DNA from: Alphaproteobacteria bacterium
GTDB taxonomy: Bacteria; Pseudomonadota; Alphaproteobacteria; Acetobacterales; Acetobacteraceae
Assembly (NCBI GenBank): GCA_016869715.1
Contig: VGDM01000001.1
Span: 186,001-250,000 of the forward strand
Length of the DNA stretch: 64,000 bases
Direction of reading: 5' to 3'
The position numbers and the translations under genes are program-made. The notes beneath the pieces were generated by a model. That model saw only the letters and a list, made by a program, of their open reading frames with translations, did no database searches and had not been told where the DNA came from. This document shows positions 4,438-58,046 of the stretch, piece by piece; within the stretch, counting starts at the first letter, position 1; each line of letters starts with the position of its first letter.

Positions 4438-5408
4438 TGCGCCCGGCTGGCCCGGAGAGTGCGGGCGCGCTCTCCCGCCGCCGCGCTGAACCGCTGGAAG
4501 CGCTCAGCATTGGTGGGCTGCATGAGAAAGCGCTGCCCTTTTTCGAAGCGGCACTGCAACAGGTTTGCGGCACTGTCGCCTATTTCCGCGATGAGCTGAG
4601 CGATACCTGGCTTTTGGAAGGTTTGCGCGAAGCAGGCGCGGGGCAGGATGCTTTGGAAAGCGCGCTGGCCTTGGCATCGCTGGTGGCGGGTATCGCCCCG
4701 CCCGCAGTGCAGATTGCGCCAGTGGAAGCCGATGGTTGGCTTGCTCGCAATCTGCAGGCTTTTCCGGAACAACGCATCGGCCAGCGCTTCCTGATCCGCC
4801 CGACGCATGTTGCGGATCGGCGCTGTTTTGATCGGCTGGTGTTGAAGCTGGATGCGGGCCTTGCTTTCGGTTCGGGGGAGCACGCTTCGACGCAAGGTTG
4901 CCTGATGGCGTTTGAAGCGATCGCGCATCGCTGTCCTCGGCGCGTCATGGATCTCGGCAGTGGTTCTGGCATTCTCGCCATGGCGGCGGCGAAGCTTCTG
5001 CATGTGCCGGTGACGGCGACCGATATCGAACCCTGGTCGGTGCGTATTTGCGCGGAAAATGCGCGGTTGAATGGGCTGTCGGCGCAGATGCGCGCGCTAT
5101 TGGCGGATGGCTGGCGGGGTCGGCGCTTGCGGGGCAAGCGCTATGATCTGATTTTCGCGAATATCCTGGCGCGCCCGCTTTGCGCCATGGCGCGAGGATT
5201 GGCGGCGCATCTTGCACCGCAGGGAACGGCCATTTTGGCCGGGCTTCTCGGCACACAGGCGCGCATGGTGCTGGCGGCGCATCGCCGTCAGGGCCTGGTG
5301 CTTGAACGCAGAATAGATGTTGGGCCTTGGACTACTTTAATTCTTAGAAGACGCGGCTGTTTCACGGCTTCGGTCATTCGACCTGCGCCGGTCAGGCGCG
5401 CTGGTTAG
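4437..5408 (+). CDS. prmA: Ribosomal protein L11 methyltransferase PrmA
   Basis: SAM-dependent methylase that trimethylates ribosomal protein L11. The family features are AFGSGEHASTQGC (usual consensus AFGTGxHxTT), the SAM-binding motif I VMDLGSGSGILAMAAAKL, acidic motif TDIEPWSV and catalytic-region ANILARPL. The family normally ends just after the WTTLILRR segment. Here some 16 extra residues (GCFTASVIRPAPVRRAG) follow; they are encoded by a dispersed palindromic repeat (5352-5404), so the native stop has probably been replaced. Translation is coupled to uvrD by TGATG. The end overlaps by four bases with the convergent gene downstream. Confidence 0.92.
   Translation: MRPAGPESAGALSRRRAEPLEALSIGGLHEKALPFFEAALQQVCGTVAYFRDELSDTWLLEGLREAGAGQDALESALALASLVAGIAPPAVQIAPVEADGWLARNLQAFPEQRIGQRFLIRPTHVADRRCFDRLVLKLDAGLAFGSGEHASTQGCLMAFEAIAHRCPRRVMDLGSGSGILAMAAAKLLHVPVTATDIEPWSVRICAENARLNGLSAQMRALLADGWRGRRLRGKRYDLIFANILARPLCAMARGLAAHLAPQGTAILAGLLGTQARMVLAAHRRQGLVLERRIDVGPWTTLILRRRGCFTASVIRPAPVRRAG
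5352..5404 (+). repeat. Dispersed repeat, family 2, copy 1 (within prmA 3' end)
   Basis: The stretch from GCGGCTG to GCTGGTT aligns base for base with 55389-55443 (about three quarters identical by eye). The shared core is CGGTCATTCGACCT followed by CGC-G-TC-G-CGC. It is an imperfect palindrome (CGGTC...GACC...GGTC). Confidence 0.65.
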
Positions 5409-5719
5409 AACCCTCGGTTGAAGAGCCAATCCTCGGTCGCTGAGATGAAACGAAACGCTTTGGCATTGGCTTCATAAGCGCGTTTTGCGATCATGACGTC
5501 TTCAATGACCGTCTCCAGGGCTTCCTGCCCTTGATTGGCGGCAATGCCGGAATCGATGCCCTCTCGTGGTGGGGGCGAGACATAGGCAGGCGTGCCTGGC
5601 GCTGCGGTGGTATTGGCCAGGCGTATTGCCGCCATTTCCAGACGCTCCACGGCTCGCTGCATGCCGCTCAGCGTCGCATTCATCGCGGCATTGATGCCGC
5701 CGGGGATAGTTTTCGTCAT
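5405..5719 (-). CDS. Flagellar basal-body rod-like protein
   Basis: A 104-residue protein. The N terminus (NAAMNATLSGMQRAVERLEMAAIRLANTTA) matches the helical rod-type N-terminal segment, and the C terminus (ALETVIEDVMIAKRAYEANAKAFRF) matches the D0 helix of FlgB/FlgC/FlgG-family proteins. The large middle domain of those proteins is reduced to about 25 residues (PAYVSPPPREGIDSG). No other flagellar gene lies nearby, so it is an isolated rod-like protein or a remote relative with another role. Its last codons overlap the end of prmA on the other strand. Confidence 0.65.
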   Translation of the reverse strand: MTKTIPGGINAAMNATLSGMQRAVERLEMAAIRLANTTAAPGTPAYVSPPPREGIDSGIAANQGQEALETVIEDVMIAKRAYEANAKAFRFISATEDWLFNRGF

Positions 5720-36827: not shown

Positions 36828-36869
36828 GGGCCTTGTCCCCAATCTTTGCCGTTCCGGGGGGTGTCTAAA

Positions 36870-36965
36870 GCATTTTCAAGCCAAGAGGAAACTCTTGGCG
36901 GCTCGGAAAATGCGACCCAGTTAAGCGCCTATTTTCAAGCCAAAAGAAAACTCTTTGCGGCGCTG
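36870..36965 (-). repeat. Dispersed palindromic repeat, family 1, copies C and C2
   Basis: Copy C (36870-36919) is the reverse complement of the copy A layout: GCATTTTCAAGCCAAGAG, GAAA loop, CTCTTGGCGGCTCGGAAAATGCGACCCA. A second, incomplete copy follows at 36931-36965 (ATTTTCAAGCCAAAAGAAAA, CTCTTTGCGGCGCTG). The tandem pair lies between scoA and the first broken glycosyltransferase. Confidence 0.7.
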
Positions 36966-45571: not shown

Positions 45572-46510
45572 ATGCGGCAGATGGACAAGGCAGCAATCCG
45601 GGCGGCCCTGCCCTGGGATCGGCTGATCGAAGCCCTCGCCGAGATGTTCCGGCAGGGCTGCGAAGCGCCGCTTCGGCACCGCCACGGCTGGGATGATGGC
45701 GCCGGGGCGCAAAACACCCTGCTGCTGATGCCGGCCTGGCGCGCGGGCGGGCATTACGGCGTCAAGATTGTGCATGTCGCGCCAGGCAATGATGCGCGCG
45801 CCCTGCCTGCCGTTCATGCCAGCTATTTGCTGTCCGATGCCACCACCGGTGCACCGCTCGCCATGCTCGATGGCGGCGAATTAACGGATCGGCGCACGGC
45901 AGCGGCCAGTCTTCTCGCCGCGCGCTATCTGGCCCGGCCCGAGAGCTCTCGCCTGCTGCTGCTGGGCAGCGGCAGGGTCGCCCATGCCCTGGCCGAGGCT
46001 TATGCTGCCTGTTTTCCAATCACGGATATCGCGATCTGGTCACGCAAGGGCGAAAATGCCGCGCGTTTGGCCGGGCAGCTTGCCGCGCATGGAATGCCGG
46101 CGCTGGCGGTGGCTGAGCCGGATTTCGCCGCCGCCGATATCATTAGCGCCGCCACGCTCGCTACCGATGCGCTGATCCCCGGCGCGGCGCTCAAGCCCGG
46201 CGTGCATCTTGATCTGGTCGGCGCCTATCGGCCCGATATGCGCGAAGCCGATGCGCTGGCGCTGAAGCGCGCCCTTTTGGTGGTGGATACCCGCGCCGGG
46301 AGCCTGGCTGAAGCCGGCGATGTGGTGCAGGCCATCGCTGAGGGTGCGATTGCAGCGGAACATGTTGCGGCGGATTTGGCGCAACTTTGCCGTGGCGCCC
46401 ATCCGGGCCGACAAGACGCGGATCAGATCACTGCCTTCAAATCCGTGGGCTGGGCCGGGGAGGATTTGGCGGCCGCGATACTGGCTTATGAGGGGGTAAG
46501 CATTTTCTAG
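45572..46510 (+). CDS. Ornithine cyclodeaminase/mu-crystallin family protein
   Basis: NAD(P)-dependent enzyme of the ornithine cyclodeaminase, alanine dehydrogenase or ketimine reductase group. Seen: GGHYGVKIVHVAPGNDARALP, LAMLDGGELTDRRTAAASLLAARYLA, the Rossmann motif LLLLGSGRVAHALAEAY and HLDLVGAYRPDMREAD. Length 312 from ATG 45572 with a GGTGGAGG ribosome-binding site. The last codons (VSIF and TAG) lie inside a dispersed repeat. Adjacent to an amino-acid importer, which suits an amino- or imino-acid substrate. Confidence 0.9.
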   Translation: MRQMDKAAIRAALPWDRLIEALAEMFRQGCEAPLRHRHGWDDGAGAQNTLLLMPAWRAGGHYGVKIVHVAPGNDARALPAVHASYLLSDATTGAPLAMLDGGELTDRRTAAASLLAARYLARPESSRLLLLGSGRVAHALAEAYAACFPITDIAIWSRKGENAARLAGQLAAHGMPALAVAEPDFAAADIISAATLATDALIPGAALKPGVHLDLVGAYRPDMREADALALKRALLVVDTRAGSLAEAGDVVQAIAEGAIAAEHVAADLAQLCRGAHPGRQDADQITAFKSVGWAGEDLAAAILAYEGVSIF

Positions 46511-46552
46511 TCAAGCGGTTTCGCTCGGCGGCTCGGAAAATGCGACCAAAAT
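46500..46552 (-). repeat. Dispersed palindromic repeat, family 1, copy D
   Basis: GCATTTTCTAGTCAAGCGGT, then TTCGCTCGGCGGCTCGGAAAATGCGACCAAAAT. It is the reverse-oriented form of copy A. Its left arm supplies the TAG stop of the cyclodeaminase gene. Confidence 0.7.
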
Positions 46553-48440: not shown

Positions 48441-48503
48441 TTTTGGTTGATCGCATTTTCCGAGTAGTCAAGTGAGTCCACTTGGATCGAGCATGTTCTA
48501 CAC
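48441..48503 (+). repeat. Dispersed palindromic repeat, family 1, copy E
   Basis: TTTTGGTTGATCGCATTTTC, CGAGTAGTCAAGTGAGTCCA, CTTGGATCGAGCATGTTCTACAC. The inner arms TCAAGTG/CACTTGGA are intact, the outer right arm is diverged. It covers the TAG stop of the MOSC gene (48498-48500). The end GAGCATGTTCTAC resembles the second hairpin at 15948, so the families may be related. Confidence 0.6.
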
Positions 48504-54395: not shown

Positions 54396-54430
54396 CGACG
54401 GCGGCCTGTTAGACCCTCGAATCGGGGGCG

Positions 54431-55456
54431 TCAACGGGTAAAATCAAGAAATGCGAAAAATTTGGCTACTTTGCTTTCCGAAAATTGCGTCAAATCTTTA
54501 AATCGCGTATTTATGATATAGGTACGCTCAGGTGCGGCCAGTTCATGGTGCCGGAACCAGGTGGCCTGCCGCTTGGTGTATTGCCCGGTCGCCAGGATGG
54601 CGCGGGCAGAGGCTTCGTCTGCCGTCAGCTTCCCGGCCAGCATGGCCGAGAGTTCCGGCACGCCATGGGCGCGCATGGCAGGCAGGCTCGGATCAAGCCC
54701 TTGCGCCAGCAGGGCGCGCACTTCCGCCACCGCGCCGGCCTCGATCATCGCCGCCCAACGCTGGGCGATGGCAGCGCGCAGTTCCGCCCGTGGCGGATCG
54801 AGCAGAATGGCGGCTAAGCCCCAGGGTGCGGGGGCGGCGCTGGCTTCCGCCTGCCAAGCCGCAATGCCACGCCCGGTGCCGCGCCAAACCTCCCAGGCGC
54901 GGGCCAAGCGCTGGCTGTCACTGGGGTGGAGCCGCGCGGCGGAGGCAGGGTCTTCAGCCGCGAGCCGCGCATGCAGGGCGGCCGCGCCTTCTTCGGCCAG
55001 AAGGCGCCGGGCTTCTTCCCGCGCCGGCAGCGGGATGGGCGGGATGGCGGCGATGCCTTGCGTGAGGGCAGCGCAATACATGCCTGTGCCACCGCAAATA
55101 ATCGGGAGCCGCCCGGCGGCGCGCGCTTCATCCATGGCGTTGAGCGCGGCAACGCGCCACCAGGCGACCGAGGCGGCCTCAGCGGCAGGGCGCACGCCGT
55201 AAAGCAGATGCGGCGCGCGGGCCTCATCCACCGCACTCGGGCGGGCGGTGATGATGTGGAGTTCCCGATAAAGCTGCATGCTATCGGCATTGATGATGGC
55301 GCCGCCGAGGCGTTCAGCGATGGCCAGCGCAAGGTCGGATTTGCCGGACGCCGTCGGGCCAACCACGAATAGCGCCTTTGGTAGTTGAGCGGCCGATTTA
55401 ACGCTCCGGTCATTCGACCTCCGCGGATCGGACGCTCTAGGTTGAAACTCCTTCAT
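54431..55456 (-). CDS. miaA: tRNA dimethylallyltransferase MiaA
   Basis: Adds the isopentenyl group to A37 of tRNAs reading UNN codons. P-loop LFVVGPTASGKSDLALAIAE, INADSMQLYRELHIITARP, the ICGGTGMYCAALTQG segment and the C-terminal YTKRQATWFRHH are seen. The N terminus has about 24 extra residues (MKEFQPRASDPRRSNDRSVK) before the first strand; DNA 55389-55443 coding for most of it is a dispersed repeat shared with the end of prmA. No other usable start is found between the repeat and the P-loop except a GTG within the strand. Confidence 0.93.
   Translation of the reverse strand: MKEFQPRASDPRRSNDRSVKSAAQLPKALFVVGPTASGKSDLALAIAERLGGAIINADSMQLYRELHIITARPSAVDEARAPHLLYGVRPAAEAASVAWWRVAALNAMDEARAAGRLPIICGGTGMYCAALTQGIAAIPPIPLPAREEARRLLAEEGAAALHARLAAEDPASAARLHPSDSQRLARAWEVWRGTGRGIAAWQAEASAAPAPWGLAAILLDPPRAELRAAIAQRWAAMIEAGAVAEVRALLAQGLDPSLPAMRAHGVPELSAMLAGKLTADEASARAILATGQYTKRQATWFRHHELAAPERTYIINTRFKDLTQFSESKVAKFFAFLDFTR
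55389..55443 (-). repeat. Dispersed repeat, family 2, copy 2 (within miaA 5' end)
   Basis: GCGGCCGATTTAACGCTCCG, GTCATTCGACCTCCGCGGAT, CGGACGCTCTAGGTT on the plus strand, aligning with 5352-5404 over the full length. The ends (AACGCTCCGGTC and GATCGGACGCT) are nearly inverted copies. Confidence 0.65.
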
Positions 55457-55476
55457 GGCGCGGGCATAGGCCGGAT

Positions 55477-56448
55477 ATGGAAAAAGTTTTGACCCTGATC
55501 GCGCCGCGCGGCGCGCTTGTCCCGGAACATCAGGCCAAGGTTGCCGCGGCGCTGCGCGATGCAGGCGCTGAAGTCAGTGCCGTGGCGCCGCTTGCCGCGC
55601 ATGAGGCCGCAGATATCCCCTTCGCCGGCCTGCCGCTGGATTACGCGGATCGCGCGGCGCGTGCGGCGCTGGAAGGCAGCCCGGTGGATGCCATCGCGCA
55701 GGAGGCAGCCGGGCGGCGCAAGCGGCTGCTCATTGCCGATATGGACAGCACCATGGTCACCAGTGAAACACTCGATGAGCTGGCGGGTGAGGCTGGGCTC
55801 AAGGACGAAATCTCGGCCATTACGCGCCGCGCCATGAATGGCGAATTGGATTTCGAAGGCGCGCTGCGGGAACGCGTTGGCATGCTGAAGGGCCTGGCGC
55901 TGGAGGCTTTGGAGCGCACCTGGGCCACCACCGCGCTGATGCCCGGCGCCGAGGAATTGGTGGCGACCATGCGTGCCCATGGCGCGCGCTGCGCCCTGGT
56001 GTCGGGTGGCTTCACCTTTTTCACGGGCCGGGTCGCGGAACGGCTCGGCTTTCATGAACATTACTCCAATACCCTGTTGCATGAGGCCGGCCGGCTGACC
56101 GGCCAGGTAGGCGAGCCCATTTTGGGCCGCAACGCCAAGCTGGTTACGCTGAAGCGCCTGGCAGCGGAAGAAGGGCTTGATCTGGCGGCGAGCCTGGCCG
56201 TGGGTGATGGCGCGAATGATCTATCCATGCTGGGCGAGGCTGGGCTCGGCATTGCCTTCAAGGCCAAGCCCGTGGTGGCGGCAGCAGCGCGGGCGCGGGT
56301 GGATCACGCGGATTTGCGGGCGCTTTTGTTCGCGCAGGGGTATCGGGGGGAAGAGTTTCGGCGGGGGGGGGTGAAGCTTCAGCCTTCCGAGCATACGATT
56401 GGTGTCGCAACAAAAGTTTGCATCGCAGGATCAGCAAATGGAAACTGA
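55477..56448 (+). CDS. serB: Phosphoserine phosphatase
   Basis: HAD-family enzyme for the last step of serine synthesis. Motif I IADMDSTMVTSETLDELA (nucleophile Asp), motif II LVSGGFTFFTG, and motif III/IV KLVTLKRLAAEEG with VGDGANDLSMLGEAGLGIAFKAKP are complete. A run of nine G at 56363-56371 follows residues EEFRR. With eight G the frame would stop at once (TGA), giving a 298-residue protein of normal length; with nine G it gains 25 residues (VKLQPSEHTIGVATKV...). The true end is therefore uncertain. Confidence 0.93.
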   Translation: MEKVLTLIAPRGALVPEHQAKVAAALRDAGAEVSAVAPLAAHEAADIPFAGLPLDYADRAARAALEGSPVDAIAQEAAGRRKRLLIADMDSTMVTSETLDELAGEAGLKDEISAITRRAMNGELDFEGALRERVGMLKGLALEALERTWATTALMPGAEELVATMRAHGARCALVSGGFTFFTGRVAERLGFHEHYSNTLLHEAGRLTGQVGEPILGRNAKLVTLKRLAAEEGLDLAASLAVGDGANDLSMLGEAGLGIAFKAKPVVAAAARARVDHADLRALLFAQGYRGEEFRRGGVKLQPSEHTIGVATKVCIAGSANGN

Positions 56449-56587
56449 AGCCTTGGAGCGCGCGGCGCTTGCGGAAATGCTCGAGCAGCGGCGTGCCGGC
56501 TGGTTCATCTCGGCAGAGGAAATGGATCATCGCCTTGAGGAAATTCTCAAGGCGAAGCTGGCATGGCTTGGTTCACGTAAAGATTGA
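56438..56587 (+). CDS. Small hypothetical helical protein
   Basis: From ATG 56438 a 49-residue product: METEALERAALAEMLEQRRA, then GWFISAEEMDHRLEEILKAK and LAWLGSRKD. The frame is open upstream to 56399. It overlaps the (possibly artificial) end of serB and, at its 3' end, the convergent TauE gene by 15 bases. It looks like a short amphipathic helical protein; no family recognised. Confidence 0.4.
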   Translation: METEALERAALAEMLEQRRAGWFISAEEMDHRLEEILKAKLAWLGSRKD

Positions 56588-57205
56588 CCAAAACATCCGC
56601 GCACTCGTGATTGCCAGAAACACCGCGAAGGCGCGCGTCAGCACCAAAGGCGGGATGCTATGCGCAAGCTTCACGCCCCAAGGGGTTCTGATGATTGACG
56701 TGGGCGCAATCAGCGCAAAGCCGATCAGGCTGATATAGCCGAATGAGAAGCGCGGCACGCGCGGATAGCTCCACCCGCCCCAGATCCGGCCAATCGTCGC
56801 TGGAATGGCGATAATCACGCCAAAGGCCGATGCGGTCGCGACTGCGGCGCGGATGAGGTAGCCAAGCAAGGACAGCAAAGGCACCCCAAGCGTGCCGCCG
56901 CCAATGCCCATCATGGCGCTGACCGAACCAATGCCAAAGCCAAGTGCGGTGCGCGGCGCGCCTTCCGGCACGCGATCGGTCAATATATCCATCGCCTCCG
57001 TCGCGCTGTGCTTCCGCGCCGATTGGATAGAGGTTGGGAGAATGGTAGCGAGGGAGGTCGCGACGGCGACCTTCATCTGCACCGCCTCAGGAATGCCAAA
57101 AAGCGGAAAAACATTGAACAGCAGCGGCACAATCACGATGACACCACCAACGCCAAGCAAGCCCGCCAGCGTGCTGGAAGCCAAACCGGTTGCTTCCATG
57201 GTCAA
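56573..57205 (-). pseudogene. TauE/SafE-type sulfite exporter, internally deleted
   Basis: Clear TauE/SafE pieces: ATGLASSTLAGLLGVGGVIVIVPLLF, VAVATSLATILPTSIQSARKH and SVSAMMGIGGGTLGVPLLSLLGY, with the end GVKLAHSIPPLVLTRAFAVFLAITSARM. Between SARKH and the DRVPEG segment the family has about 55-60 more residues (two helices); here only nine residues join them, in frame. Upstream the same frame encodes DPLWLGALALTM, normal for the family, but has no ATG; only TTG 57205 or a CTG can start it. The protein probably cannot fold as an eight-helix exporter. Confidence 0.7.
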
Positions 57206-57344
57206 AGCCAGGGCGCCGAGCCAAAGCGGATCGTTTAAATATGTCAGGTTATCTCACTAACGCTGTGCCGTCCTCAAGCGGCGTGGCATAAAGCGCTGTG
57301 GCTTGCGCGTCACCCCATGGGGGCGCGCCAAGGGGATGTTTTCA

Positions 57345-58046
57345 ATGGCTGACGCGCGAATCCTGGGCGTTTTGGGCGGCATGGGGCCGCTCGCAAGTGC
57401 ATGTTTCGTGCAGCGCCTCACGCTGCTGACACCGGCAGAGCGTGATCAGGACCATATCCCGACGATCCTGTGGTCTGACCCGCGCGTACCGGACCGCACG
57501 GCGGCGCGGGTTGCCGGCGGGGAAGACCCCTTGCCCGCGCTGGTGCGCGGCATTCGCGGGCTGGAAGCCGCCGGCTGTGGCGCCATCGCCATTCCCTGCA
57601 ATACCGCCCATGGCTGGTATGATGGCATGCGTGCCGCGACTAACCTGCCCATTCTGCATATTGTGGATGCGGCGGGCGCGGAATTGCAGCGGCTTGGCGT
57701 GGCCGGCGGGCGCATTGGCGTGATGGGCACGGCGGGCACGCTCGCGATGCGGCTTTATCAGCAAAGGCTGGATGGGCTCGGCTATGAATGCCTGACACCG
57801 AGCGAGGCCGAAATGCAAAGCCGCGTGACGCCAGCGGTTACGGCGGTGAAGGCGAATGGGCTGGCGGAATCCTATGAACCGCTCGCGGAAGTGGCGCGCA
57901 GCCTGATGGCGCGCGGCGCGCGGGCGGTGGTGCTGGGGTGTACGGAAATACCGCTTGGCATCGCGGCGGGGCCGGCGCTGCCCTTTCCAGTGGCAGATAC
58001 GATTGATGCGCTGGCGCGGGCGGCGATTGGCTGGGCAAAACCGTAA
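57345..58046 (+). CDS. Aspartate/glutamate racemase family protein
   Basis: Cofactor-independent amino-acid racemase with two catalytic Cys. ILGVLGGMGPLASACFVQRL is the start, the first Cys is in AIPCNTAHGWYD and the second in VVLGCTEIPLGI. Length 233 from ATG 57345, which has an AAGGGG site at good distance; 57336 and 57303 are in-frame alternatives. It may provide D-Asp or D-Glu for cell-wall synthesis or act on hydantoins; not decided. Confidence 0.9.
   Translation: MADARILGVLGGMGPLASACFVQRLTLLTPAERDQDHIPTILWSDPRVPDRTAARVAGGEDPLPALVRGIRGLEAAGCGAIAIPCNTAHGWYDGMRAATNLPILHIVDAAGAELQRLGVAGGRIGVMGTAGTLAMRLYQQRLDGLGYECLTPSEAEMQSRVTPAVTAVKANGLAESYEPLAEVARSLMARGARAVVLGCTEIPLGIAAGPALPFPVADTIDALARAAIGWAKP

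Follow-up and report, generated by a model that had tools for sequence, protein, structure and literature searches.

A dispersed palindromic repeat of the Acetobacteraceae lies within the reading frames of miaA, prmA and other genes

We find that two unrelated proteins encoded in a 64,000-nt stretch of an Acetobacteraceae genome (the window), the methyltransferase PrmA and the tRNA-modifying enzyme MiaA, carry residues whose derivation from one dispersed repeat is supported by comparison with related genomes. Both stretches are very probably copies of one palindromic element, non-autonomous and dispersed through genomes of this bacterial family, that lies in frame in several genes. An earlier note on this DNA had aligned positions 5352-5404 with 55389-55443 over about 54 bases; the alignment holds, and its core is now refined to 47 nt (Table 1). 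In a repeat search of the window, 5353-5410 and 55389-55446 form an ungapped direct repeat of 58 nt at 74% identity. prmA reads the repeat from one strand and miaA from the other, each in a different frame.

Table 1. Coordinates of the features discussed (window positions unless a contig or locus is named)
Feature	Position	Strand	Basis or remarks
prmA, ribosomal protein L11 methyltransferase, 323 aa	4437..5408	+	domain match, orthologue 3' ends
prmA end past the usual stop	5358..5408	+	TGT 5358-5360, 16 codons, TAG 5406-5408
Repeat copy 1, 47-nt core	5353..5399	+	codes PrmA residues 306-321
Repeat copy 2, 47-nt core	55389..55435	+	minus strand codes MiaA residues 8-23
miaA, tRNA dimethylallyltransferase, 341 aa	54431..55456	-	net 20-codon insertion after residue 6
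Approximate insertion limits in miaA, 67 nt vs 7 nt in contig C88	55372..55438	-	aligned blocks stop at 55371, resume at 55439
Second palindromic family	1689-1741, 36868-36917, 46498-46550, 48447-48503		repeat search
Copies upstream of lipoyl synthase	L065, L069, L072, L074, L075, L077, L172, L175, L207, L259; own genome C22:11391-11443 (L057)

With 101 bases around each copy as query, a DNA search of the genome recovered the other copy (E = 0.001) and further genome copies with E-values down to 6e-10 (copy 1) and 1.4e-8 (copy 2). The 13-mer common to both copies, CGGTCATTCGACC, was found three times in the window at up to two mismatches, against 1.7 expected, which is not beyond chance; the case for a repeat therefore rests on the whole family. 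In the genome itself the 13-mer core at one mismatch has nine places, compared with three for the reversed pattern, and four of the nine are clear copies by eye; a covariance model was used instead. This model (R1), built from eight copies that include both window copies, scores those two at 69.4 and 73.1 bits, and the next match in the window at 17.3 bits. The earlier note had proposed a genome-wide search; with R1, the genome that contains the window gives 15 matches at E ≤ 2.1e-5 and three weaker ones below a limit of E = 5, 18 in all.

The eight copies align over the 47-nt core, with the consensus GCGGCTGATTCACCGCTTCGGTCATTCGACCTnCGCGGATCAGACGC. The repeat is ~47-57 nt long, the tandem period is 55-60 nt in most arrays, and the ends of the element are inverted repeats. 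Three stacked helices of 8, 4, and 4 pairs are separated by loops, and the terminal GCG pairs with CGC. The hairpin of copy 1 has a folding energy of -20.9 kcal/mol (z = -2.4 on the plus strand, -2.5 on the minus strand), and that of copy 2 on the plus strand -19.7 kcal/mol (z = -2.3; minus strand, z = -1.6). Across the eight aligned copies 92.1% of 126 cells are paired, a share that drops to 32-39% when the partner is slid by one to three columns. Four pairs vary on both sides; in helix 2, for example, C-G and G-C are swapped between five and three of the eight copies. When the 3' letters were shuffled, the observed value was reached in 33 of 500 shuffles for pairs changed on both sides, in 36 of 500 for pair types, and in one to six of 500 for three other measures. 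Covariation is thus clear but modest with eight sequences, and the tested structure was derived from the same eight copies, which favours it. A run of T sits before the hairpin, not after it (alignment by eye). At its gathering score, Rfam matched only tRNA in the window and contributed no described RNA family for the repeat. The minus-strand frame, ASDPRRSNDRSGESAA, is stop-free in nearly every copy.

Copy 2 had been described in the earlier note as encoding residues ahead of the MiaA P-loop; we confirm this and can specify it as an insertion in frame (Table 1). The TIGR00174 match begins only at MiaA residue 29. The N terminus in the window reads MKEFQP-RASDPRRSNDRSVKSAAQLPK-ALFVVGPTASGKS, and that of the MiaA on contig C88 of the same assembly, which has no insert, reads MKEFQP-L-ALFVVGPTASG. 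Among 31 miaA loci, 26 are empty (C88 included), four have one in-frame copy (G000, G020, G033, and G025), and one, in G029, has three in-frame tandem copies with a period of 57 nt. At least three in-frame tandem copies also follow MNKDQP in the miaA of G002, a locus at a contig end and outside the 31. In the five filled loci, the stretch from insert to P-loop offers a single in-frame start codon, a GTG that lies one or two codons ahead of the P-loop; G029 additionally has a TTG within its first copy. Since that GTG is too close to the P-loop for a normal MiaA, the insert should be translated.

Contig C88 (locus L263 of genome G000) is 4.5 kb long and collinear with window positions 54414-58036, in four blocks that are 91-94% identical. 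It would be either a duplicate or the counterpart from a sister strain in the same bin.

At the other end of the comparison, PrmA carries copy 1 as its last 16 or 17 residues, past its usual end as had been claimed, and orthologues without the repeat lack these residues. The Pfam domain PF06325 stops at residue 305, immediately before the part encoded by the repeat core; the last two codons before the TAG fall outside that core. Matches to the NCBIfam PrmA models lie under their cut-offs. Most PrmA orthologues of the genus terminate in ..LRKR* or ..RRRG* and similar. Two relatives, G015 and G008, have a copy at the corresponding position of prmA that supplies the stop itself (GAC TGA and GGC TGA, respectively). 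The window copy has GGC TGT in place of the TGA, and the frame continues, adding CFTASVIRPAPVRRAG after RRRG. The motif CTGTTT at the stop position occurs in three of 164 scored copies (of 168 examined), the window copy included. Of 30 prmA loci given, one is cut by a contig end; among the 29 3' ends read, the tail is present only in the window and the 28 others are without it. The PrmA of G007 has an unrelated extension with no repeat, and in G013 copies lie 20 nt beyond the stop. Several outgroup genomes already carry GCGGCTGA at the end of prmA, so only an approximate left edge can be given for the insertion. The tail is read from the plus strand, in another frame than MiaA. According to the earlier note, the same tails in repeat-free orthologues would speak against a common origin; none were found for either protein in the loci read.

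The copies read in frame extend beyond these two genes. We considered 133 loci, made up of the 15 copies of the genome itself and the best genus matches listed (172 hits in 132 places; L076 and L226 are one place, and L250 is the place of L071). A gene caller based on codon scores called 113 of the 133 arrays intergenic, 11 partial, and nine within genes; it misplaces starts, and the miaA copies landed among the intergenic ones. After the frames were read, coding places numbered 17 of the 132 among the matches listed: six in miaA, seven in a gene for a Rieske-domain protein (PF00355), two in a gene for a FadH/OYE-like oxidoreductase, and one each in prmA and a gene for a XerD-type recombinase. 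All except prmA read one same frame of the repeat. The Rieske gene is filled in seven of 30 loci, and the remaining 23 read straight through (..EAGASL-VEGPYQAET..); G027 has two in-frame tandem copies there, spaced by 57 nt. At the C terminus of the FadH/OYE-like oxidoreductase two of 18 loci are filled and 16 empty, and one XerD-type locus has an in-frame copy in its tail, in MiaA's frame. Many copies are orthologous and hence not independent: the coding cases amount to five genes, and the coding tandem arrays to three in two genes.

The single-copy insert in the Rieske protein comprises 31 residues, a second palindrome included. This in-frame palindrome, CACCATCCATGCCGATGGATGGTG, is present in G020, G026, and G031 and altered in the other filled loci (the filled loci with it are L056, L083, L177, L186, L187, L257, and L076). 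With up to three mismatches it was found in nine of 35 genomes, in seven of the nine at the Rieske gene; away from that gene, G006 and G017 each have a single palindromic place. We considered it as a further dispersed element and rejected this, as it looks local.

All three coding tandem arrays (in miaA of G029 and G002 and in the Rieske gene of G027) have a period of 57 nt. Among 24 non-coding arrays with copies in the same orientation, the period is not divisible by three in 19 and divisible in five (the main spacing and copy counts cover 168 of the 172 hits, with L226 and L071 left out; L071, viewed separately, has a period of 64 nt). Frame-shifted copies (..VNQ..) make up 35 of 127 anchored non-coding copies, compared with none of 20 coding copies. 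The frame is stop-free in 126 of the 127 anchored non-coding copies too. Openness alone is therefore no sign of selection for coding, and the stop-free frame is a property of the element.

Copies are widespread in the genus, in at least 32 of 35 genomes at E ≤ 0.01, with none in G014, G021, and G022. In 24 genomes from other genera of the class, the covariance model found no copy at E ≤ 0.01 under strict filters. At the level of the family Acetobacteraceae, at least 86 of 299 sampled genomes and at least 34 of 102 genera have copies at E ≤ 1e-4; owing to the strict filters and capped scoring, the true genus and family counts may be higher. When named genomes were scanned for the exact pattern, 15 stretches came up in MAGs labelled Asaia bogorensis (six), Roseomonas sp. 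(five), Rhodospirillales (three), and Alphaproteobacteria (one). The genomes are mostly drafts, and the one that contains the window has 5.08% contamination. A search of an open-access library for work on Roseomonas or Acetobacteraceae repeats found no paper on this repeat.

Most copies in the loci examined are intergenic, often so near the 3' end of a gene that the edge of the element holds the stop codon. With a simple gene caller, the stop codon of a neighbour lies within the array edge in 47 of 115 non-coding arrays. Both neighbours were called for 110 non-coding arrays: 37 of these lie between convergent genes, 57 between genes in the same direction, and 16 between divergent genes. In FastTree trees of miaA, prmA, and a Rieske segment, filled and empty loci are interspersed, with several low support values; repeated insertion, precise loss, or recombination may have produced this pattern. 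A MITE would have terminal inverted repeats, a target site duplication, and a related autonomous transposon; the ends of this element are inverted repeats, and by eye no clean target duplication was seen at the junctions of the miaA and Rieske sites. A RAYT-type transposase (PF01797), present in five of 14 control genomes, was found in one of the 35 genus genomes and not in the genome that contains the window; we accordingly rejected it as the mover. The earlier note's view that two unrelated proteins share residues from one repeat stands. Its word "mobile" is supported as far as filled and empty sites between close relatives go (miaA, Rieske, and FadH/OYE-like genes); neither transposition nor a mover was found.

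We propose that a copy entering in the stop-free minus-strand frame, and changing the length by a multiple of three, would add a short polar segment and leave the gene open. Such in-frame entry would have occurred in miaA and, among relatives or at other places of this genome, in the genes for the Rieske protein, the FadH/OYE-like oxidoreductase, and the XerD-type recombinase. In prmA the element would have come to overlap the stop codon; with TGT here in place of the TGA of two relatives, translation would continue for 16 further codons. The filled MiaA and Rieske products, if translated, would include the peptide ASDLRRSNDRSSESAA. Judging from the reading frames, the extra residues are probably translated; they may persist because terminal or loop positions tolerate them, and mobilisation would presumably depend on a factor supplied in trans. 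A stronger version, which we consider doubtful, is that the element acts as a portable polar peptide, its stop-free frame and 57-nt coding period permitting entry into, tandem multiplication within, and exit from housekeeping enzyme genes across the family without breakage of the frame, and a factor other than RAYT spreading it.

The position of many copies invites a different explanation: that selection keeps the repeats as RNA or DNA signals with a function at the ends of genes (a terminator, an mRNA 3' stabiliser, or a protein-binding site) and are coding only by accident. The conserved hairpin, the neighbours' stops within array edges, and the 94 of 110 arrays between convergent or same-direction genes would suit such a role. 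However, the in-frame inserts within the Rieske gene and at the start of miaA are away from gene 3' ends, the T-run precedes the hairpin by eye, unlike in an intrinsic terminator, and presence is scattered between close relatives; on this evidence we judge a selected gene-end signal rather unlikely.

More improbable still is that the coding status of the two window copies is an artefact, with MiaA starting downstream of an untranslated insert and the PrmA tail produced by a one-base sequencing or assembly error. The tail does hang on one base, in a variant this rare among the scored copies, and the assembly is a draft; yet the filled miaA loci, five in number, have no usable in-frame start from the insert to the P-loop, and in tandem arrays of as many as three copies the frame is maintained. 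That two 54-base stretches resemble each other by chance we regard as vanishingly improbable. The pairwise identity is just 74%, and the 13-mer common to both is not unusual once mismatches are allowed, but there are 15 copies with compensatory changes in a family that has spread through the genus, and the hairpin covariation together with the 15 copies in one genome led us to rule chance out. A dispersed palindromic element that entered reading frames is the account we prefer.

Palindromes that code for protein are known above all from the intracellular Rickettsia. The Rickettsia palindromic elements (RPEs) of Ogata and coworkers are introduced as 100-150 bp repeats of Rickettsia and Wolbachia, one listed insert being given as 84 (PMC3767692). 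As described there, RPEs resemble the present element as short dispersed palindromes in an alphaproteobacterium, some of them in reading frames left unbroken, with orthologous sites filled or empty (PMC3767692). The present element is likewise a dispersed palindrome in frame within genes whose orthologues are without a copy, but by description it differs from RPEs in length (core 47 nt, ~47-57 nt overall, tandem period 55-60 nt) and belongs to another bacterial family.

REPs, according to PMC3733652, measure 20-40 bp and carry an unpaired GTAG or CGTC tag; those with CGTC have a stem of 8-9 bp, a loop of 4-5 nt, and a tail that is mostly CCA, RPE-4 and RPE-6 are counted among them, and they are missing from several families, Acetobacteraceae included. 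The same paper describes REPs as mostly intergenic near gene 3' ends, with some intragenic and some grouped, and GTAG REPs as giving stop codons to neighbours through their edges, as do those of the present element (PMC3733652). Compared with these REPs, the present element is longer and has three stacked helices; its helices of 8, 4, and 4 pairs with loops and its terminal GCG, paired with CGC, depart from the CGTC-tagged definition. By eye there is no GTAG at either end of the consensus, and the RAYT transposase associated with GTAG REPs was not found (PF01797) in the genome that contains the window.

PARCEL elements are dyad-symmetric DNA in tandem coding units that specify 25-residue amphipathic domains in ORFs without assigned functions (PMC2996958). 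Dyad-symmetric DNA in tandem coding units is common to both; the present units differ from that description in contributing ~19 polar residues (19-residue units) within recognisable enzymes. The present repeat is best regarded as a new family of the same kind as intragenic RPEs and intragenic REPs, the latter being reported in bacteria other than Rickettsia (PMC3733652). A comparable coding palindrome family is now seen in a different family of Alphaproteobacteria, where close relatives show one site filled, empty, or in tandem. Comparing such site states makes it possible to ask how elements enter and exit, whether proteins make use of the peptide or simply tolerate it, and what the mover is.

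Two further observations concern palindromes outside the five genes. Upstream of lipoyl synthase, the copy in relatives, not in the genome that contains the window, holds an in-frame ATG (MTEAVNQPLK.. and alike), and may supply the start codon of that gene there. The window also contains a second palindromic family, AAGCATTTTC...CGGAAAATGCGACC, at four positions (Table 1), the sequence of which is unlike that of the present repeat.
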